Shown here in pieces: positions 9,368-17,397 of a stretch of DNA of 64,000 nucleotides. Within the stretch, counting starts at the first letter, position 1; every line of letters begins with the position of its first letter. Below the pieces are notes generated by a model. The model did not search any database. It was not told the origin of the DNA and saw only the letters and a program-made list of their open reading frames with translations. Source of the stretch: Oscillospiraceae bacterium (GTDB lineage Bacteria > Bacillota > Clostridia > Oscillospirales > Oscillospiraceae); assembly GCA_021770845.1 (NCBI GenBank), contig JAETQF010000005.1, forward strand, positions 62,001 to 126,000, read 5' to 3'. The position numbers were made by a program, and so were the translations under genes.

Positions 9368-9864
9368 CCGGGGCGCTGGGCCGCTGGCGGAGGTTGGTGA
9401 CGGAGCAGCTGCGCTCCGCGGGGCTGGAGGCCGTGGAGGCCATGGGGCCGGAGCGGGCGGCTCGGGTTCGGGGGCCGGCGGCGGCGGTGGCGCTGGCCGG
9501 GGCGGTCTGCGGCCCGGGCGGGTTCCAGGACTATCTGGGCGCCGAGGAGACCCAGGGCGGCGGACGCCGGGAGGTGTACGGACGCTGGGTGGAGCTGACG
9601 CTGCGGGTGGATGTGTTCGCCCCCAGGGACGGGGGCGCCCCCGCCTGCCGCGCCGCGGCGGAACAGGCGGCGGAGGAGCTGCTGTTCCAGGGGGCGGCGG
9701 GACTGCCCGTGGCGGAGCTGACGGCGGGAGAGACGGAGTTTTTGGAGCGGGACGGACTGTACCGGCTGGCGGTGCGCTGCCGGTGCGGGGCGTGGCTGAC
9801 GGCCCGGGCCGACGAGGAGACCGGGACGCTGACAGACTTTGAAGTGAGGGGGACGATGAGATGA
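9364..9864 (+). CDS. predicted tail terminator/tail completion protein
   Basis: A 166-residue protein immediately upstream of the sheath, the place of YqbJ/gpU-like tail terminators that cap the tube at the head-proximal end. An N-terminal helix is followed by VYGRWVELTLRVDVFAPRDG, a helix with AAAEQAAEELLFQG and terminal beta strands (YRLAVRCRCGAWLT). TTG at 9364 lies in TTGA with the preceding stop, matching the 4-base overlaps elsewhere in the cluster, so the track start at 9328 is rejected. Its stop overlaps the sheath start. Confidence 0.6.
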   Translation: MTGALGRWRRLVTEQLRSAGLEAVEAMGPERAARVRGPAAAVALAGAVCGPGGFQDYLGAEETQGGGRREVYGRWVELTLRVDVFAPRDGGAPACRAAAEQAAEELLFQGAAGLPVAELTAGETEFLERDGLYRLAVRCRCGAWLTARADEETGTLTDFEVRGTMR

Positions 9865-10895
9865 GCGCAGGGACTAAGCACGAGCGGCCGGGGGTGTATT
9901 CCTCCTATGAGACGTCCGGGCTGACGGCGGCCAACGCCGGCGGCGGCCGGGTGGCGGTGATTGCCGCCGCCGGGGAGACGGACGCGGGGAAGTGCTTCCA
10001 GTGGACCAGCTACAGCCGGGCGGCGGCGGACGTGGGCGACTGCGCCCTGAGCCGGCTGGCGCGGCTGGCCCTCCGCAACGGCGCGGGGACGGTGTACGGC
10101 GCGGCGGCGGGGACGGACTACACCGACGCCATCGAGGCGGTGGGCAAGCTGGAGGACGTGGACGTGGTGGTGTGCGACAGCACGGTGCTGTCCGTCCAGC
10201 AGAAGGTGAAAACCATGGTGACGGAGTGCTCCGCCGCCCGGAAGGAGCGCATCGCCGTGGTGGGCGGCGCGGCGGAGGAGACGGTGGAACAGCTCACCAC
10301 CCGGGCCGCGGGCCTCAACTGCGAGCGGGTGGTGCTGGTGGCCCCCGGCATGGGGGACGGCTCCGGCGGGGCGGCCTGCGCCGCCGCCGTGGCGGGGGCC
10401 ATCGCGGGCAACCGCGACCCGGCCCTGCCCCTGGGGGGCGCGGAGCTCTACGGGCTGGACGGGCTGGAGTGTAGCTATGACGACGGCGAGATCGACGCGC
10501 TGGTGCAGGGGGGCGTGACGGCGCTGGAGACGCTGGCGGGCTCCTGCTACGTGGTGCGGGGGGTGACCACCCGTACCACCACCGGCGGCGCGGCGGATAC
10601 CACCTGGCGGGAGCTGACCACCATTCTGGTGGTGGACGAGGTGATCCCGGGGCTGCGCGACGCCCTGCGTGCCCGGTTCAACAGGGCCAAGAATACCGTC
10701 CAGACCCGGGGGGCCATCCGATCCCAGACGGTGATGGAGCTGGAGAAGCGGGTGGCCCGGGAGATCATCGACGGGTACGAGGACGTGACGGTGACGGCGC
10801 TGGAGGACGACCCCACGGTGTGTTTGGTGGAGTTCGCCTTTACGGTGGCCCACGGGCTCAACCAGGTGTGGCTGTCGGCGCATATTACCGTTTGA
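9861..10895 (+). CDS. contractile tail sheath protein (XkdK-like)
   Basis: The sheath contracts to drive the tube into the target. The 344-residue protein starts with the family pattern KHERPGVYSSYE and has the alpha/beta middle domain (ALRNGAGTVYGAAAG, AIEAVGKLEDVDVVVCDS, KERIAVVGGAAEETVEQLTTRA, CERVVLVAPGM). The conserved C-terminal domain contains the subunit-linking strands (YVVRGVTTRT, ITV end). It is shorter than B. subtilis XkdK but similar to the short sheaths of clostridial phages and diffocin-type particles. It defines the cluster as a contractile system. Confidence 0.9.
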   Translation: MSAGTKHERPGVYSSYETSGLTAANAGGGRVAVIAAAGETDAGKCFQWTSYSRAAADVGDCALSRLARLALRNGAGTVYGAAAGTDYTDAIEAVGKLEDVDVVVCDSTVLSVQQKVKTMVTECSAARKERIAVVGGAAEETVEQLTTRAAGLNCERVVLVAPGMGDGSGGAACAAAVAGAIAGNRDPALPLGGAELYGLDGLECSYDDGEIDALVQGGVTALETLAGSCYVVRGVTTRTTTGGAADTTWRELTTILVVDEVIPGLRDALRARFNRAKNTVQTRGAIRSQTVMELEKRVAREIIDGYEDVTVTALEDDPTVCLVEFAFTVAHGLNQVWLSAHITV

Positions 10896-10914
10896 CGGCC
10901 GCTGGGACGGAGAG

Positions 10915-10966
10915 GCGGGCCGGGGTCGTCCCGCCCTACGGCCTGGGCTTGGCGGGAGCGCCGCGC
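10915..10966 (+). repeat. solo right end of family C repeat
   Basis: GGCGGGCCGGGGTCGTCCCG followed by CCCTACGG matches the right arm of the inverted-repeat element seen at 27.75, 40.5 and 62.65 kb. The left arm is absent. It lies between the sheath and tube genes. Confidence 0.6.
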
Positions 10967-11003
10967 GGCAACGGGCGGGGCATGAGTATAAGGAGGGGTT
11001 TGA

Positions 11004-11414
11004 ATGGCAGGGTTTAACACGGGGCTGCGGGCGGCGGGCTTCCCCACCAGCAGCGACATCTGGCTGGAGGTGGACGGGCAGAAGGTGGCGGTGGTGCAGA
11101 GCTATTCCTGCAAGGCCAGCCGCACGTCCATGACGGTGGAGGCCTTTGGCGAGGACGAGCCGGTGGCTACGGTGCAGGGGCCCCAGAGCTATGTGATCCA
11201 GCTCACCCGGCTGTACGCCACCGATCAGGCGCTGGCGGACGGGCTGAATTTCTACGACTTGAAGAATTTTTCCCTGGTGATCTGCAAGCCGGATCGGAAG
11301 GTGATCTACTCCGACTGCCAGTGGAGCGGCATCGAGGAGGACGCCCAGCTGGGCAAGACCGTGGTGGAAAAGCTCACCCTGGTGGCCGGCCGCCGGATGG
11401 AGACGGCGGCTTAA
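11004..11414 (+). CDS. phage tail tube protein (XkdM-like)
   Basis: A 136-residue protein of the size and pattern of XkdM tube proteins that stack as rings inside the sheath. SDIWLEVDGQKVAVVQSYSCKASRT is the N-terminal strand pair, VQGPQSYVIQLTRLYATDQAL the central part and YDLKNFSLVICKPDRKVIYSDCQWSGIEE the C-terminal strands. ATG 11004 is preceded by AAGGAGG. The next gene starts directly at the stop. Confidence 0.85.
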   Translation: MAGFNTGLRAAGFPTSSDIWLEVDGQKVAVVQSYSCKASRTSMTVEAFGEDEPVATVQGPQSYVIQLTRLYATDQALADGLNFYDLKNFSLVICKPDRKVIYSDCQWSGIEEDAQLGKTVVEKLTLVAGRRMETAA

Positions 11415-11834
11415 ATGGGCGGGCCGGTGTGGATGGGACAGGAGCGGGTGAGGGTTCCCGAAGGGGAGCTGCGGCTGCTGTCCGCCCGGGAGGTGCTGGA
11501 CGCCCGCCGGGAGGGAGACGCCCTGGCCGGGGACGGGGGCGGGCGGGCGCTGTGCCGCAACGCCTGCCTCCTGGCCCGGGCGCTGGAGCGGAAGGGGCGG
11601 CCCGTGTTTGACAGCGGGCGGGCCGTGCTGGACGGGCTGCGGGTGGAGGACATCGCCCGGCTGGCGGACGCCTGGGGGGCGTTCAACCGGGAGGCCAACC
11701 CCTCCCCCCTGGACGGGGAGGAGGAGATCCGGCGGCGAAAAAAAGGCTGGAGCACGCGCCTTATGAGCGCCTTCAGTGGCGCGTGCTCCGGCTGTTCGGC
11801 GCTCTGCCCACGGAGGAACGGGCGAAACGGATGA
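11415..11834 (+). CDS. tail assembly chaperone, zero-frame product (XkdN-like)
   Basis: This 139-residue helical protein lies between the tube gene and the genes that normally lead to the tape measure, where phages place the G/GT-type chaperone. The first about 110 residues form the conserved part (LLSAREVLDARREGDALAG ... VEDIARLADAWGAFNREANPSPL). Near codon 110 the frame reads CGA AAA AAA GGC, an A-AAA-AAA slippery heptamer. The remaining in-frame tail is low-complexity (SGACSGCSALCPRRNG) and looks non-native, which supports a frame change at that point. Chaperone function is inferred from the family. Confidence 0.75.
   Translation: MGGPVWMGQERVRVPEGELRLLSAREVLDARREGDALAGDGGGRALCRNACLLARALERKGRPVFDSGRAVLDGLRVEDIARLADAWGAFNREANPSPLDGEEEIRRRKKGWSTRLMSAFSGACSGCSALCPRRNGRNG
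11738..11744 (+). promoter_or_regulatory. candidate programmed -1 ribosomal frameshift site
   Basis: Heptamer A AAA AAA in the zero frame, followed by GGC. It joins the two tail-chaperone frames in the -1 direction, as in lambda G/GT and many long-tailed phages. A downstream stimulatory structure was not defined. Confidence 0.7.
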
Positions 11835-12046
11835 CCGACCGGGACTTCCTGTGGTGCGCCCTCAACCTGGCCCTTGACCGGGAGGAGGAGCTGGGACGGC
11901 TGTGCCCCGCCTGCCGGGAGCGGGCGGAGGCGGAGCCCTGCCCGGTGTGCGGCGCGCCCCGGGGGGAGTGGGCGGTCAACGAGGGATTTGACTGGAAGCG
12001 GTATGAGGAATTGAAGGGGGGGCGGGACGATGACGGATTGGATTGA
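11738..12046 (+). CDS. tail assembly chaperone, -1 frameshift extension (T-like domain)
   Basis: The -1 frame is open from the slippery A-AAA-AAA (11738-11744) to the stop at 12044-12046. Read this way it continues KKRLEHAPYERLQWRVLRLF and then PTEERAKRMTDRDFLWCALNLAL, a coherent helical domain. It is followed by paired CxxC motifs (CPACRERA, CPVCGAP) that could bind zinc. The track start at GTG 11783 lies inside this domain without a good ribosome binding site, so translation by frameshift is the simpler explanation. The fusion would span 11415-12046. Confidence 0.7.
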   Translation, partial: KKRLEHAPYERLQWRVLRLFGALPTEERAKRMTDRDFLWCALNLALDREEELGRLCPACRERAEAEPCPVCGAPRGEWAVNEGFDWKRYEELKGGRDDDGLD

Positions 12047-12677
12047 GTGGATGCTGGGCGAGGACGACGAGGACGAAGCGGAGGACGAGGAGCGGCCCGC
12101 CCTGGACGGGGCGGCGGAGGTGCGCCGCCCGGCGCTGCCTCGGGAGGACGGGGCGGAGGATGAGTTGGAGCCGGAAGCGGAGCCGGAGAAGGCGCCGGAA
12201 TGGAAGCCGGGGTACGGGATGCAGGACGCCGCGCCGGGGGCTTTGGGCGGGACGGACTGGGCCGGGGTGAGGACGGACAGGACGGACTGGGCCGGGGTGA
12301 GGACGGACGGGACGGACTGGGCAAGGTGGACGGCGGAGGCTGGGCTGGACGCGATAGTTCCGGAGTGGGCGCGGGAGACGGCCGAAGCGGGCCGAAAGCT
12401 GGGCGGAGATCTGGAGAACAGGCCGGAGGCGGCGGAAGCGGGTTCGCCGGGGCCGGCGCGGAAGCCGGACAGGGGAGGCTCCGCCGCGCTGATGGAGCTG
12501 TACCGGGGGGCGGCGGAGGGGGCCCGGGCCCCTGCCCCCGCCCTGGCCCGGTCGGAGACGTCCCGGACGGTGCTGGAACGGGAGACCGGGGGAGCGCCGG
12601 GGCTGACGGTGGAGGAGCTGGATCGGGCCGTGCGGCGGGACAGCAGACGGTATGACGGCGGGATGAGTATTTTCTGA
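12030..12677 (+). CDS. acidic, low-complexity phage protein at the tape-measure position
   Basis: A 215-residue protein. The N-terminus is very acidic (GEDDEDEAEDEE), a 10-residue unit TDWAGVRTD(R/G) follows nearly two and a half times (about residues 75-98), and the rest is Ala/Glu/Pro-rich with a C-terminus EELDRAVRRDSRRYDGGMSIF. It overlaps the chaperone extension by 17 bases and is followed directly by the LysM protein. The C-terminus resembles small proteins located before tape-measure genes in clostridial phages, but no tape measure follows. Function unknown; probably disordered. Confidence 0.6.
   Translation: MTDWIEWMLGEDDEDEAEDEERPALDGAAEVRRPALPREDGAEDELEPEAEPEKAPEWKPGYGMQDAAPGALGGTDWAGVRTDRTDWAGVRTDGTDWARWTAEAGLDAIVPEWARETAEAGRKLGGDLENRPEAAEAGSPGPARKPDRGGSAALMELYRGAAEGARAPAPALARSETSRTVLERETGGAPGLTVEELDRAVRRDSRRYDGGMSIF
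12251..12325 (+). repeat. 30-bp tandem repeat inside the acidic phage gene
   Basis: The unit GACGGACTGGGCCGGGGTGA plus 10 bases occurs at 12251 and 12281 and partially at 12311. The copies differ by a single base and keep the reading frame, encoding the TDWAGVRTD repeat. Confidence 0.9.
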
Positions 12678-12695
12678 TTGAGGGGAGGATGCGGA

Positions 12696-13274
12696 ATGAT
12701 TCTTTCTCCCATGCGGTTCAAAAATTTTGTGTGGCCCCACAATCCCCGGGTGTACTCCATCACCTATGAGCGGAAGATCGCGGTGCACAAGATCCCCTTC
12801 GGGCGGCACTATTTGCAGAGCCTGGGGCAGACGCGCCGGGTGCTCCGGGGGGAGGGGGAGTTTGTGGGCGAGGGGGCCTACGACACCTTCAAGGAGCTGG
12901 CCACCGTGTTCTATGAGGAGACGCCGGGGGTGCTGGCCCATCCGGTGTGGATGACTACCACGGCCTGGTTCGCGGGGCTGGAGCTGCGGCAGGAGCCCCG
13001 GCGGGACTATGTGGCCTACTCCTTTGAGTTCTGGGAGGTCATGACCGACGGGAACAACGGGGAGCTGGAGCGCCGGACAACGGCCGAACCGGGGTCGGGG
13101 ACGGGGACGGCGGATACGGGCCAGGGGACACTGTGGCACACGGTGGTTCGGGGGGACACCCTCTGGGGGATCGCCCGGAAATACGGGGTGGCGCTGAACC
13201 GGATCATCGCCCTGAACCCGGACATCCGGAACCCCAACCTGATCTATCCGGGACAGAGGGTGAGAATTTCATGA
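12696..13274 (+). CDS. LysM-domain tail/baseplate protein (XkdP-like)
   Basis: A 192-residue protein. The N-terminal domain (FKNFVWPHNPRVYSITYERK ... AYDTFKELATVFYEE) matches the XkdP/gp53-like baseplate family. A GSGTGTADTGQGT linker leads to one C-terminal LysM domain (WHTVVRGDTLWGIARKYGVALNRIIALN ... IYPGQRVRI) that in related particles binds the hub. The ATG at 12696 follows GGGGAGGATG and is preferred over TTG 12678. Its stop lies within the ATGA start of the next gene. In PBSX the gene before this one is the tape measure, which is missing here. Confidence 0.88.
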   Translation: MILSPMRFKNFVWPHNPRVYSITYERKIAVHKIPFGRHYLQSLGQTRRVLRGEGEFVGEGAYDTFKELATVFYEETPGVLAHPVWMTTTAWFAGLELRQEPRRDYVAYSFEFWEVMTDGNNGELERRTTAEPGSGTGTADTGQGTLWHTVVRGDTLWGIARKYGVALNRIIALNPDIRNPNLIYPGQRVRIS

Positions 13275-14224
13275 TGGAGTGCTGGGTGAGGCTGGGTGAC
13301 GGGCAGGAGTGGAAGCTGCCCACGGCGGTGGGGTGGACGTTCCGCTATGGGACGGATACGCCCTGCGACAGCTTTTCCCTGCGGTGCCTGTGGGACAAGG
13401 GGCAGGAAAAGCTGCTGTCCGGCGCCTGCCGGTTCTTCGCCGAGTGGGACGGGGAGCGGGTGTTCACCGGGGTGGTGGACGAGTTCGCCGTGGTGTGCGG
13501 CGGGGACGGGCTGCGCCTGGAGCTGGAGGGCCGGGGTATGGCGGCGCTGCTGCTGGACAACGAGGCCATGCCGGCGGAGTACCAGCGGTGCACCCGGGCG
13601 GATCTCATCGCCAACCACGTGGCGCCCTATGGGGTGGAGGCCCTGGGGGGCGGCGGGCTGCCCCCCGTCAGCGGCTTCACCGTGGGCAGCGGGGAGAGCG
13701 AGTGGAGCGTGGTGCGGCGGTTCGCCCGCTATTACGGCGGGGTGACGCCCCGGTTTGACCGGCAGGGGCGGCTGGTGCTGGATCCCTATGGGGACAGGCT
13801 GGCGGCCCAGATCGGCGGAAAGGAGAGGATCACGGCCTGGGAGTACCGGGAGGATCGGCACGGGGTGCTCAGCCGGGTGGCGGTGCGGCGGCGCACCACC
13901 TGGGGCACCCAGTGGGTGTCCGATCCGGCGTTTCTCGCCCAGGGGGGCTGCGCCCGCAGGGTGATCACGGTGCCCAACACCACGGGCACCACCGCCATGC
14001 GGTATACGGCGGACTATCAGCTCCGGGCGGCGCGGCGGGAGCGGGTGCGCCTGCGGCTCACGGTGGCCGGGGGCTTCCTGGCCTGGCCGGGGGAGCTGGT
14101 GGACGTGGAGCTGGATGGCTTCGGGGCCAACGGGCGCTACCGGGCGGCCCAGGTTGAGGTGAGCTGCGGAGGCGATGGGCTCACCACCACGCTGGTGCTT
14201 GGGGAAACGGACGCGATGATTTAG
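13271..14224 (+). CDS. tail hub protein (XkdQ/gpD-like)
   Basis: A 317-residue protein of the hub type that forms the ring joining tube and spike. The N-terminal domain has WTFRYGTDTPCDSFSLRCLW and FFAEWDGERVFTGVVDEF, the middle has GRGMAALLLDNEAMPAEYQRCTRADLI, and the later part SESEWSVVRRFARYYGGVTPRFDRQGRLVLDP is the usual late-domain signature of this family (here GESEWS). It starts at ATG 13271 inside the LysM gene's stop. A family A repeat and a long palindrome follow and separate it from the spike gene. Confidence 0.85.
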   Translation: MMECWVRLGDGQEWKLPTAVGWTFRYGTDTPCDSFSLRCLWDKGQEKLLSGACRFFAEWDGERVFTGVVDEFAVVCGGDGLRLELEGRGMAALLLDNEAMPAEYQRCTRADLIANHVAPYGVEALGGGGLPPVSGFTVGSGESEWSVVRRFARYYGGVTPRFDRQGRLVLDPYGDRLAAQIGGKERITAWEYREDRHGVLSRVAVRRRTTWGTQWVSDPAFLAQGGCARRVITVPNTTGTTAMRYTADYQLRAARRERVRLRLTVAGGFLAWPGELVDVELDGFGANGRYRAAQVEVSCGGDGLTTTLVLGETDAMI

Positions 14225-14242
14225 GGCCTCCCAGCGCCCCGG

Positions 14243-14405
14243 CGGTTAGGCGCACCACCCAGGCGCCAACCGTGGGAACCGCCTGTGACAGTACCCACAC
14301 ACAGGCGGCAGCACAAATGGGGGAGAAGCCAGTCCAGTTCCGGAGCGCCGGTCACTCCCCCGCCACGTGCTCCAAGGAAGCAAGGGGGTACATAGGGGCA
14401 CAGCC
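14243..14405 (+). repeat. family A interspersed repeat, copy 3
   Basis: Contains AGGCGCCAACCGTGGGAACC, CACAGGCGGCAGCACAAATG, CAGTCCAG and GCGCCGGTCACTCCC, then CCAAGGAAGCAAGGGGGTAC as at copy 1. It lies between the hub and spike genes of the phage cluster. Confidence 0.85.
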
Positions 14406-14420
14406 CCTATGCGCGCTCTT

Positions 14421-14452
14421 TGGTTACTTTCTCTCGCGCGAGAGAAAGTAAC
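14421..14452. repeat. 32-bp perfect palindrome
   Basis: GGTTACTTTCTCTCGC followed by its exact reverse complement. The same type of palindrome, with related sequence, ends the repeats at 5.13, 43.8, 48.99 and 50.16 kb. It could form a hairpin in RNA or a cruciform in DNA; no T-run follows. Confidence 0.85.
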
Positions 14453-14510
14453 CCCCCGCGGAGCGGCGTCCCCTGGGGGCTGAGGGGGAAAACAAAAGGA
14501 GGAATTGACA

Positions 14511-14936
14511 TTGTGGCTGAGCGGACAGCAGAAGCGCCCCGCCGACTTTGGCGAGGGCCAGACCGGCATCGTCACCATGAGCGGCGGCGAGACGGCGGTG
14601 CTGCTGGATCGGGAGCGGCGGGGGCTGGAGGTGTACGCCCCCGGCGGCTACCACTGGACGCCCCAGGCGGGGCAGCGGGCGCTGGTGATCCAGGGCCGGG
14701 GGGAGATCCCCTGCGTGGTGGGGGTGCGGCAGGGGGGCGGCACCCCGGATTCCGTGGGCATCGGGGCCAAATCCGTGGAAATCAACGGGCAGAGCGTGTC
14801 CATACAGTCGGAGGGGACGGCGGCAGTAGGGGGCGGCGGGGTGGATCTTCAAGGGGACGTTTTTGTGAACGGGGAGCCGCTGCCGGAGTACATCGCCCGG
14901 ATTGTGGCCGGACTTCTGGGAGGAGGCGGAGCATGA
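14511..14936 (+). CDS. baseplate spike protein (gpV/OB-fold type)
   Basis: A 141-residue protein with an OB-fold-like N-terminal half (GQTGIVTMSGGETAVLLDRERRGLEVYAPGGYHWTPQAGQRALVIQG) and glycine-rich beta repeats after it (IGAKSVEINGQSVSIQSEGTAAVGGGGVDLQGDVFVNG), the pattern of short central spike proteins of contractile tails. TTG at 14511 is 8 bases from AGGAGG; TTG 14505 is too close to it. The stop overlaps the next start. Confidence 0.7.
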   Translation: MWLSGQQKRPADFGEGQTGIVTMSGGETAVLLDRERRGLEVYAPGGYHWTPQAGQRALVIQGRGEIPCVVGVRQGGGTPDSVGIGAKSVEINGQSVSIQSEGTAAVGGGGVDLQGDVFVNGEPLPEYIARIVAGLLGGGGA

Positions 14937-15283
14937 GCCTGAAGCTGATAAACCGGGACTATGTGCCGGACGGCAACGGCGGCGTGGCCGTGGCCTCGGA
15001 CGGGGACGAGCTGGTGGGCGAGGCCCTGTTCCGGCTGACGGCCCGGCGGGGGAGCTTCCCCTTTTTGCCGCAGCTGGGCAGCCGGATGCATCTGCTGCGC
15101 CGGGAGCGGCCCTCGGAGTGGGACAGCCTCGCCCTGCAATACGCCGTGGAGGCGCTGGAGGATATGGAGGGCGTCCAGGTCACCGGGGCGGCGGTGCGCC
15201 GGGACGGGGACGGCCTGCTGGTGACGGTGGAGCTGCTGTGGCAGGGGGCAACTCTGCCGGTGGAGGTCAGGCTGGAGGGATGA
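14933..15283 (+). CDS. baseplate protein, DUF2634/XkdS-like (gp25-type wedge)
   Basis: A 116-residue protein with the gp25/XkdS pattern: a conserved entry (DGDELVGEALFRLTARRGSFPFLPQLGSR), a helix with LALQYAVEALEDMEGVQVTGAAVRRDGD and a final strand pair (LLVTVELLWQGATLPVEVRLEG). Proteins of this family form part of the baseplate wedge that triggers sheath contraction. ATG 14933 overlaps the previous stop (ATGA). Four bases separate it from the baseplate J gene. Confidence 0.8.
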   Translation: MSLKLINRDYVPDGNGGVAVASDGDELVGEALFRLTARRGSFPFLPQLGSRMHLLRRERPSEWDSLALQYAVEALEDMEGVQVTGAAVRRDGDGLLVTVELLWQGATLPVEVRLEG

Positions 15284-15287
15284 GCAT

Positions 15288-16385
15288 TTGATTACGTTAG
15301 AGGAGATCTACGCGGGGCTGGCGTCGGAGTTCCAGACCCGGACGGGCAAGACCGCCGGGGCCAGCAGCGAGCTGGCGGTGCGGTTCTACGCGGTGGCGGC
15401 CCAGATTTACGCCCTGTACGTCCAGGGGGAGTGGACGCGGCGGCAGTGCTTCCCCCAGACCGCCCAGGGGGAGGATCTGGACAAGCACGCCCAGATCCGG
15501 GGCGTCACCCGCCGGCAGGCGGCCAAAGCCAGCGGCGCGGTGCGCTTCTATGTGGACGAGGCCCAGGAGGTGGAGGTGGACATACCGGCGGGGACGGTGT
15601 GCATGACCGCCGGCGGCGTGCGGTTCGCCACCACCCAGGCGGCGGCGGTGGCGCCGGGGGCGCTGTACGCCCAGGCGCCCGTGGAGGCCGTGGAGGCCGG
15701 GGCGGCGGGCAACGTGGGAGCGGGTACCATTGTATATATGTCCCTGCCGCCGGTGCGGATTGTGGCCTGCGCCAACCCGGAGCCCTTCACCAACGGGCTG
15801 GATCAGGAGGGGGACGACTCCCTGCGGGAGCGGGTGCTGGCCACCTACCGTCGGCTGGCCAACGGGGCCAACAGCGCCTTCTACCGGCAGGCGGCCATGT
15901 CCTTCCCCGAGGTGGCGGCGGTGACGGTGCTGCCCAAGAACCGGGGGGTGGGGACGGTGGACATCGTCCCCGCCGCCCAGGGCGGGGCGCCCAGCCAGGC
16001 GCTGCTGGCGGAGATGCAGAGCTATTTCGACCAGGTGCGGGAGATCGCCGTGGACGTGGAGGTGAACGCCCCCACGGTGGAGACGGTGAACCTGTCGCTG
16101 AAGCTGTGGGCGGAGGAGGGCCGGGACTTTGACGACGTGGCCGAGGCGGTGGAGGACGCCCTCACCGCCTGGTTCAACGGGGAGCGGCTGGGCAAGCCCC
16201 TGCCCCGGGCCCAGCTCACCAGCCTGGTGTTTGCGGTGGACGGGGTGGACAACTGCCAGATCCTCCAGCCGGGGTCGGATCTGGAGCTGAGCAACGTGAC
16301 CCTGCCGGTGCTGGGGACGGTGACCATCGCCAACGGGGCGGCGGCCGCGGCCTCCAACGCCCCGCAGGAGGGGGTGAGCCAATGA
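15288..16385 (+). CDS. baseplate J family protein (XkdT-like)
   Basis: The 365-residue protein has the baseplate J pattern: the N-terminal helix-rich part (LASEFQTRTGKTAGASSELAVRFYAVAAQIYALYVQGEW), QTAQGEDLDKHAQIRGVTRRQA, then AVEAGAAGNVGAGTIVYM, and the C-terminal DVEVNAPTVETVNLSLKLW ... AQLTSLVFAVDGVDNCQI. The family builds the wedge scaffold that links hub and fibres. TTG 15288 lies 8 bases from GGAGGG. It overlaps the next gene by 4 bases. Confidence 0.92.
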   Translation: MITLEEIYAGLASEFQTRTGKTAGASSELAVRFYAVAAQIYALYVQGEWTRRQCFPQTAQGEDLDKHAQIRGVTRRQAAKASGAVRFYVDEAQEVEVDIPAGTVCMTAGGVRFATTQAAAVAPGALYAQAPVEAVEAGAAGNVGAGTIVYMSLPPVRIVACANPEPFTNGLDQEGDDSLRERVLATYRRLANGANSAFYRQAAMSFPEVAAVTVLPKNRGVGTVDIVPAAQGGAPSQALLAEMQSYFDQVREIAVDVEVNAPTVETVNLSLKLWAEEGRDFDDVAEAVEDALTAWFNGERLGKPLPRAQLTSLVFAVDGVDNCQILQPGSDLELSNVTLPVLGTVTIANGAAAAASNAPQEGVSQ

Positions 16386-16969
16386 TCCACGAGGACTACC
16401 TGGCGGCGCTGCTGCGGCCCCTGGGCGTCTACGACCTGCGGGCGAGCACGGTGAACCGGGGGGAGCTGGGGGCCTACGGCAAGCGGCTGGATCACATGGA
16501 GCAGGAGCTGGAGGATACCGCCCGGGAGATGAACCTGGCCACCGCCCGGGGCTTCGGGCTGGAGCGGGTGGAGGAGCTGCTGCCCTACCGCCCGGTGTGC
16601 AGCACCCCGGGCCAGCGGCGGGCGGCGCTGGCGGCCCTGCTGCGGATCGGCGGGGACAGCTTCACCCCCGCGGCCATCAATGACACCCTGCGGGGCTGCG
16701 GCCTCAACGCCCGGGCGGAAGAAGGGAATCAGCCGGGGTATGTGAAGGTATACTTTCCCGATGTGGCGGGCATTCCCGAGGGGTTCCAGGAGCTGCGGGC
16801 CATCATTGAGGAGATTCTGCCCAGCCATGTGGACGTGACCTATGTGTTCTGGTACAACACCTGGGCCATGGCGGCCCAGCGGCACCCCACCTGGGGACAC
16901 GTCCAGGCCGCGGGGCTGAGCTGGTACGGCGTCGCCACCGAGAACGACGGGGATCTGGACTGGCCGTAA
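16382..16969 (+). CDS. baseplate/tail protein, DUF2313 family (XkdU-like)
   Basis: The 195-residue protein is the usual partner directly after baseplate J in PBSX-like clusters, where it attaches tail fibres. Visible are an N-terminal helical region (ALLRPLGVYDLRASTVNRGELGAYGKRLDHMEQELE), a central helix with VEELLPYRPVCSTPGQRRAALAALLRIGGDSFTP and a C-terminal domain ending HVDVTYVFWYNTW. In phages the fibre genes follow; here a stem-loop and a non-coding RNA gene follow instead, so the cluster ends at this gene. Confidence 0.85.
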   Translation: MIHEDYLAALLRPLGVYDLRASTVNRGELGAYGKRLDHMEQELEDTAREMNLATARGFGLERVEELLPYRPVCSTPGQRRAALAALLRIGGDSFTPAAINDTLRGCGLNARAEEGNQPGYVKVYFPDVAGIPEGFQELRAIIEEILPSHVDVTYVFWYNTWAMAAQRHPTWGHVQAAGLSWYGVATENDGDLDWP

Positions 16970-17060: not shown

Positions 17061-17089
17061 TTGACAAATCCGAGGGTTTATCGTACAAT
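17061..17089 (+). promoter_or_regulatory. sigma-A promoter of the structured RNA
   Basis: A perfect TTGACA -35 box, a 17-base spacer and a TACAAT -10 box. Transcription would begin near 17096. No ribosome binding site with a coherent ORF follows. Confidence 0.9.
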
Positions 17090-17095
17090 ACAGAC

Positions 17096-17397
17096 AGAAA
17101 GGAAAAGGTGAGTCCAATGTATTAACGTAGAACGCACCAACCTCTTTCTGCGATTGGGGAACGCAAAGTGAGACGAAGTCTCAACCGTTCCAAACACGCT
17201 TACGCAAGCGACGGAAGCCAGATCAAGTCTGAAGCCCACCATTGTTTGAGGAAACGAGGAGAAGCAGTTTCAGGCGCAGCCCCAACGCAAACCATCCGGC
17301 AGGGCCGGAAGAAAGTGAAGGTATCAGCCCTTGGACAATCAAACCCAGAAGTAGGCCCCCAGCCGCGGAATAGGACGGCTGGGGGCCTGGTGTTTTT
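17096..17397 (+). ncRNA. about 300-nt structured non-coding RNA (possibly raiA-motif RNA)
   Basis: A free-standing transcription unit with perfect promoter, about 300 bases of structured sequence and an intrinsic terminator. Visible helices include GGGGAACG...CGTTCC enclosing TGAGAC-gaa-GTCTCA, CGCTT-acgc-AAGCG, and CCGG-cagg-GCCGG. Purine-rich unpaired stretches such as GACGGAAGCC and GAAAGTGAAGGTATCAGCCC look like conserved core segments of a large structured RNA. Length and features remind me of the raiA-motif RNA known from Firmicutes and Actinobacteria, but this is from memory and could not be checked. It does not match 6S, tmRNA, RNase P or SRP RNA. No raiA gene is adjacent. Confidence 0.8.
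17354..17397 (+). terminator. terminator of the structured RNA
   Basis: GGCCCCCAGCCG, a 10-base loop, CGGCTGGGGGCC, then TGGTGTTTTT. Confidence 0.9.

Follow-up and report, generated by a model that had tools for sequence, protein, structure and literature searches.

On the forward strand of a Clostridia genome (2.48-Mb assembly, contig C9), in a 64-kb stretch of DNA that was analysed as a whole and is called here the window, lies a locus that is tentatively explained as a stand-alone RNA gene with a constitutive promoter, belonging to a family so far undescribed. Its product would be a stable RNA engaged by ribosomes, in which micro-ORFs would dock ribosomes that protect and insulate the molecule, and in which the structured core would act in trans. 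We hold this explanation, taken as a whole, to be the best one, with somewhat less than even confidence. The RNA gene, its conservation, the covariation of helix H1, the complementarity to 16S rRNA and the conserved starts and stops are read directly in the sequence (Table 1). We know of no description of a structured core placed between two micro-ORFs with ribosome sites; this refers to the open-access literature, and an earlier description is possible.

Table 1. Features of the RNA gene, in positions of the window
Feature	Position	Strand	Evidence
Sigma-A promoter, TTGACA-17-TACAAT	17061..17089	+	Same position in most of 31 core-model matches
5' extended Shine-Dalgarno, AGAAAGGAAAAGGTGAGTCC	17096..17115	+	16S-tail duplex -21.3 kcal/mol; 60 relatives
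ORF1, two-codon minigene ATG TAT TAA (Met-Tyr-stop)	17117..17125	+	AUG-X-stop in 54/60 relatives and 26/30 independent sequences
Anti-SD imitation, CACC AACC UCUUUCUG	17135..17150	+	Minimum-energy fold; can pair the 5' SD into a hairpin
Structured core, closed by H1	17150..17288	+	H1 covariation; RNAalifold; R1 in 39/42 genomes
Second ribosome-binding site (SD2), AGAAAGTGAAGGT	17310..17322	+	16S-tail duplex -12.9 kcal/mol; conserved
ORF2, 7 codons + stop, TTG GAC AAT CAA ACC CAG AAG TAG (MDNQTQK)	17331..17354	+	60 relatives; 31/31 core matches
Intrinsic terminator	17354..17397	+	Sequence; A-U/G-C covariation at the ORF2-stop/stem pair in 10 sequences

Promoter, Fold and Terminator

The promoter consists of TTGACA (17061-17066), a 17-nt spacer and TACAAT (17084-17089). 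An earlier note on this DNA had described it as perfect; the promoter itself stands, with 11 of 12 matches to the consensus, although TACAAT agrees in five of its six positions. Two promoter-like sites were found in 3 kb, compared with 0.5 expected. Transcription is expected to start near 17096, and the RNA, of about 300 nt, has a fold of -106.6 kcal/mol, whereas shuffled sequences give -86.9 kcal/mol (z -4.4; none of 100 as good), bearing out the strong structure that had been claimed. The intrinsic terminator was likewise confirmed, as a 12-bp GC stem (17354-17387) with T5 at 17393-17397, which the automatic scan overlooked because the T run begins 5 nt past the stem.

In helix H1, positions 17150-17158 pair with 17281-17288 (GCG(A)UUGGG with CCCAACGC), and the inner core contains hairpins such as CGCUU/AAGCG (17197-17210), within the context GUUCCAAACA. 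When homologues were aligned, four of the eight H1 pairs were found to covary. Among 27 sequences, pair 2 alternates between C-G and U-A, pair 3 between G-C and U-A, pair 4 among U-A, C-G and A-U, and pair 8 between G-C and A-U; over distinct arm pairs, 96% of the cells are paired, compared with 81% when the partners are shuffled and with none of 5000 shuffles as high, although this control is optimistic because the patterns used for locating the arms were chosen after the alignment had been read. Applied to the core alignment, RNAalifold recovered H1 and the CGCUU/AAGCG hairpin without the chosen arm patterns; on the full alignment H1 was missed and the covariation term was small. The remaining core helices are mostly invariant, with a small RNAalifold covariation term. 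Compensatory changes in one helix, the mark of a conserved structured RNA, are thus found in H1. Comparing the best helices with swapped partners gave no discrimination in this GC-rich sequence, and a conserved long-range pairing between GUCCAAUG and the ORF2 start was discarded, since by eye it could be followed in part of the genus only.

Comparison with Known RNA Families

When the window as a whole was run through cmscan with the 4227 models of Rfam 15, nothing matched at the gathering score; at the locus, E up to 10 brought up chance-like matches only, with raiA, 6S, ROOL, GOLLD and OLE absent. In 11 relatives scanned against Rfam, the significant matches were tRNA genes only. The raiA-motif RNA (RF03072, at the gathering score or E up to 10), 6S RNA (RF00013), ROOL, GOLLD, OLE and the remaining Rfam 15 families were consequently all rejected as the identity of this RNA, for want of any relevant match at the locus. 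This agrees with the claim that no housekeeping RNA is involved and leaves the novelty standing at the sensitivity of Rfam, and the suggestion of raiA has to be abandoned. The raiA-motif RNA (ModT) is also a free-standing structured RNA of Bacillota, and its size, its taxon and its strong promoter resemble those seen here; however, its covariance model does not match and the genuine 6S of the source genome lies elsewhere (G000:C18), so that a divergent raiA or another known housekeeping RNA is hardly conceivable. A search for raiA in 14 genomes, the source genome included, found none, and is weak by itself, the control genomes being silent too. We know of no raiA RNA with flanking micro-ORFs. 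6S RNA resembles the RNA described here in being free-standing, and adjoins related RNAs in two sister families, although it differs in sequence and structure and is present in the source genome as a separate single copy. The RNA was unmatched in phage records and gave 34-nt chance-like matches only in plasmids, for which reason a phage or plasmid origin was rejected; three IMG/VR contigs contain the RNA.

Relatives and Distribution

A DNA search of 300 genomes of the family yielded one full-length relative at 72% and 3' ends within the genus, together with a conserved 5' end of about 34 nt lying right behind promoters in many genera. Of 400 genomes of the family, 46 contained the pattern AAAGN{0,5}RGGTGAGTCCVATG, and none contained the reversed form that served as control. 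The strict pattern was found in 99 stretches among 85,000 species genomes and in nine among viral contigs, and named sources of pattern matches include Pseudoflavonifractor, Intestinimonas, Enterenecus and Galloscillospira; many of the genomes searched are metagenome assemblies. The member set comprises 60 distinct relatives with both ends, for which ORF2 was a selection criterion.

R1, a covariance model built on the core alone (about 140 nt), matched 39 of the 42 genus genomes, and 23 of the 24 of good quality, nearly always as a single copy, a conservation that exceeds chance by far. Together with the Rfam negatives, this supports the earlier proposal of a free-standing structured RNA gene, possibly of a new class. 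When R1 was run on other subgroups the core was not matched; since it finds the genus and no other subgroup, the core is taken to belong to the genus level, and the flanks to be older and family-wide. Some loci depart from the common arrangement: L065 is a minimal relative with both micro-ORFs (MYQ and MMVEPKTYIE), the terminator and almost no core, L041/L088 (G193) has the RNA in tandem, as two copies and one more that lacks the first AUG, and L177 has two tandem copies.

Ribosome Sites and Micro-ORFs

The locus had been described as lacking an ORF, which proved incorrect, since it bears two conserved micro-ORFs with ribosome sites. Three blocks of the 5' Shine-Dalgarno (SD), namely AGAAAGGA, GGUGA and UCC, are complementary to the 16S tail GGAUCACCUCCUUUCUA, and the energy given in Table 1 is that of the 5' end AGAAAGGAAAAGGUGAGUCC with the tail GGATCACCTCCTTTCTA; the tail was taken from four genomes of the family, no 16S being recoverable from the source assembly. 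The best sites of 95 ORFs, drawn from the window and from four contigs of the same genus, are all weaker (median -12.6). Like a STAB-SD element, the site lies close to the expected start of the RNA, a few nt away. The conserved AUG at normal spacing suggests that the site may direct translation initiation, which a STAB-SD element does not.

The arrangement of SD, AUG, one codon and stop that defines a two-codon minigene is found at the frequencies given in Table 1, the second set being the readable sequences of 31 places found independently by the core model, a few of which were read by eye where the script had chosen another start. The frequency of the stop is not built in, because the patterns of both searches for relatives left it out. 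The peptides are MY, MG, MI and MT, the second codon (X) being mainly Tyr UAC/UAU or Gly GGC, and TAA, TAG and TGA all serve as stops; six of the 60 relatives have no immediate stop, and two members of the genus (L278, L279) lack ORF1 and retain ORF2. Judging from these alignments, it is the position of ORF1 that is conserved, not its peptide, and docking is favoured over a peptide function because X varies, all three stops are used and the position is fixed.

The anti-SD imitation could, according to the predicted fold, switch off the 5' site in the window, but not generally: only the genus group shows elevated pairing of the 5' SD (SD1; 0.58 vs 0.45), which is unconvincing elsewhere, so that a universal sequestration of the SD was discarded as unsupported outside the genus.

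At the 3' end, SD2 has a strength that is ordinary for genes. ORF2 starts with TTG in 44 of the 60 relatives, ATG in 14 and GTG in two, and stops with TAG in 26, TAA in 21 and TGA in 13. It is mostly 7-10 codons long and its stop codon lies directly against the terminator stem; in the window, the two share a base, the final one of the stop and the first one of the stem. Every one of the 31 independent places has ORF2; in two of these places it has 13 codons and ORF1 is missing. Synonymous changes make up 46% compared with 21% expected, a count that comes from non-independent pairs and in which stop-codon swaps are treated as synonymous.

Genomic Neighbourhood

Upstream, the window contains phage tail genes (sheath, LysM, Baseplate_J, Gp48-like), in line with the phage cluster of the earlier note; the significance given to this neighbourhood is not supported, the tail genes being found beside the RNA in part of the genus only and not in other genera. 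The contractile-tail cluster (9861-16969), possibly a domesticated tail-like particle, also adjoins the RNA in G247 and probably in G319. Within the same genus, G202 has the RNA between other genes and mreB, with no tail cluster. Downstream in the window lie a 115-aa protein without a Pfam match, then the cell-shape protein MreB and two topoisomerase/gyrase subunits, and in other genera the neighbours include flagellin- (hag), ClpB-, FabG- and HemW-like genes, named by their first residues only.

Since the neighbours differ between relatives, the closeness to phage genes is taken to be incidental, and regulation in cis to be unlikely. A leader or attenuator acting in cis on the downstream gene, in the mreB region, would accord with mreB following on the same strand in several genera and with the ORF2 stop abutting the terminator. 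However, the mreB-like frame of G087 is oppositely oriented, hag, clpB or fabG-like genes are found elsewhere, and the 115-aa gene lies in between within the window; this reading is thus highly improbable, and a leader of one gene was rejected on account of the varying neighbours.

Related Modules in Sister Families and beside 6S

Across the order, GGTGAGTCCVATGNNNTRR was found in 21 of 394 genomes, and its control in none. In two sister families (f15 and f16, which like f1 are working labels) it is often in tandem, in RNAs of up to about 1 kb, one of which has the micro-ORFs MYR, MK, MYT, MK and MI and then a 25-codon ORF. Sister-family RNAs of this size with tandem GGTGAGTCC modules (L213-L218, L231, L238, L244-L249) gave no Rfam match, and some GTGAGTCC copies in these families have no AUG. 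In 10 of 10 of those genomes 6S lies about 1-2.5 kb off on the opposite strand (divergent), and it is likewise nearby on the opposite strand at Neglectibacter loci. In 40 further regions flanking 6S, for which presence of the motif played no part in the choice, all 15 occurrences of GTGANTCC lay on the divergent strand, for the most part in f16. Two-codon ORFs as a type showed no clear enrichment in these regions (11 vs 6), the motif standing instead ahead of ORFs of about 18 codons. In the family of the window 6S lies elsewhere, within 6 kb only in G150.

Similar modules were also observed further afield. Three Lachnospiraceae loci (L118:7100-8000; L121, minus strand, first ~1200 nt; L132:6000-8000) each combine a sigma-A promoter and this 5' module, encoding MG or MQ, in a transcript unit of about 1 kb; L121 ends in an SD, MDEIV and a terminator. 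Other Clostridia (L103, L126, L156, L196, L114) have units of about 0.5-0.9 kb with one to four tandem GAAAG-GGTGARTCC-VATGG modules, and an Rfam scan of L103 and L126 gave no match. In L155, L128, L221 and L222 the 5' module and a minimal ORF stand upstream of longer frames resembling secreted proteins, as if in an mRNA leader.

6S RNA sequesters RNA polymerase. By analogy, one could envisage an order-wide and so far undescribed class of strongly promoted, free-standing ribosome-docking RNAs, each with a single two-codon micro-ORF or several of them behind an unvarying GGTGAGTCC site and placed beside 6S in sister families, which would keep ribosomes in store or restrain them in the way that 6S acts on RNA polymerase, a generalisation that we consider rather doubtful.

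Proposed Mechanism and Alternatives

Taking into account the presence of the core throughout nearly the whole genus, the changes in H1, the match to 16S, the AUG-X-stop layout, the closing of ORF2 at the terminator and the varied neighbours, it is tentatively proposed that ribosomes are docked on this RNA. The extended SD would draw a 30S subunit to the 5' end, and the ribosome captured in this way would start at the AUG and terminate after one codon; the 5' end would stay occupied against RNase J-type 5'-3' decay, and ribosomes would be kept from entering and unfolding the core. A second ribosome would work on the seven-codon ORF2, finishing at the terminator hairpin, and the function proper would reside in the structured core, which would act on some target in trans. 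Ribosome occupancy, the effect on stability and the trans function are what we infer. Against this stand the failure of R1 to match other subgroups, the six relatives without an immediate stop and the loss of ORF1 in L278 and L279. Moreover, in L065, having both micro-ORFs and almost no core, the core cannot be the working part, and the GTGAGTCC copies without AUG imply that the motif may have another role.

STAB-SD stabilisers, such as that of cry3A, in which a 30S subunit blocks RNase J1 (PMC4113751), share with this RNA an extended SD near the 5' end that is complementary to the 16S tail; they belong, however, to the 5' UTR of a protein mRNA, whereas here an AUG-X-stop follows at normal distance on a stand-alone structured RNA, and stabilisation is predicted. 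The two-codon minigenes axe-txe mg2, LEE1/ler and B. subtilis ycbK also combine an SD with AUG-X-stop, that of axe-txe acting in cis, possibly via mRNA stability (PMC8708949). Those known lie in leaders of protein genes, whereas here the minigene is the genus-conserved 5' end of a free-standing RNA, and is found in tandem in sister families.

The same layout could serve as a sink for ribosomes and tRNA, if strong initiation on the two-codon minigene captured ribosomes, shed peptidyl-tRNA and damped translation globally, with the core tuning access, for instance through an SD-sequestering hairpin. The model for this would be the lambda bar minigenes, which are AUG-X-stop ORFs on a strong ribosome site, although here the ORF lies on a structured transcript that is encoded in the chromosome and has a promoter and a terminator of its own, and we know of no toxicity of this RNA. 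Having the strongest SD among those compared, the AUG-X-stop layout, tandem modules on one RNA with 6S nearby in sister families, and a possible sequestration of SD1 within the genus would all suit a sink; yet X is mostly Tyr or Gly, with no single rare codon, and the family of the window has one module per RNA, so that this proposal, which is by analogy, seems rather unlikely.

Alternatively, the transcript might be a small mRNA in which ORF2 (7-10 codons) encodes a functional peptide, the remainder being a regulatory 5' UTR with a minimal uORF. The synonymous excess of ORF2, its maintained frame and recurring acidic-then-Gln pattern, and the 15-25-codon ORFs with homologous starts in sister-family RNAs point in that direction, but the peptides are diverse (e.g., MDNQTQK, MEKPDQK, MLDNKKHQK), the excess has the weaknesses already mentioned, and the covarying core is big for so small a product, which makes a coding function unlikely. 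A further reading, quite unlikely, takes GGTGAGTCC primarily as a site at which a protein or a different RNA binds, with the micro-ORFs partly a by-product: nine of its bases are invariant, the spacer GTCC included, some sister-family copies lack the AUG, and the motif is rare elsewhere (VATG comes next in 20 of 21 occurrences, in 375 kb of loci selected for the motif), but AUG-X-stop is maintained with all three stops, the same layout occurs with other spacers (AGGTGTTACCAATGAAATAA), and the motif matches the 16S tail.

Concluding Remarks

A single-copy RNA that is present in nearly all genomes of a genus of gut bacteria and absent from Rfam is likely to have an important role. With its layout, the function of conserved dipeptide ORFs becomes open to direct testing, and the tandem module that related families have beside 6S suggests a larger class, still unannotated, tied to the global control of expression.
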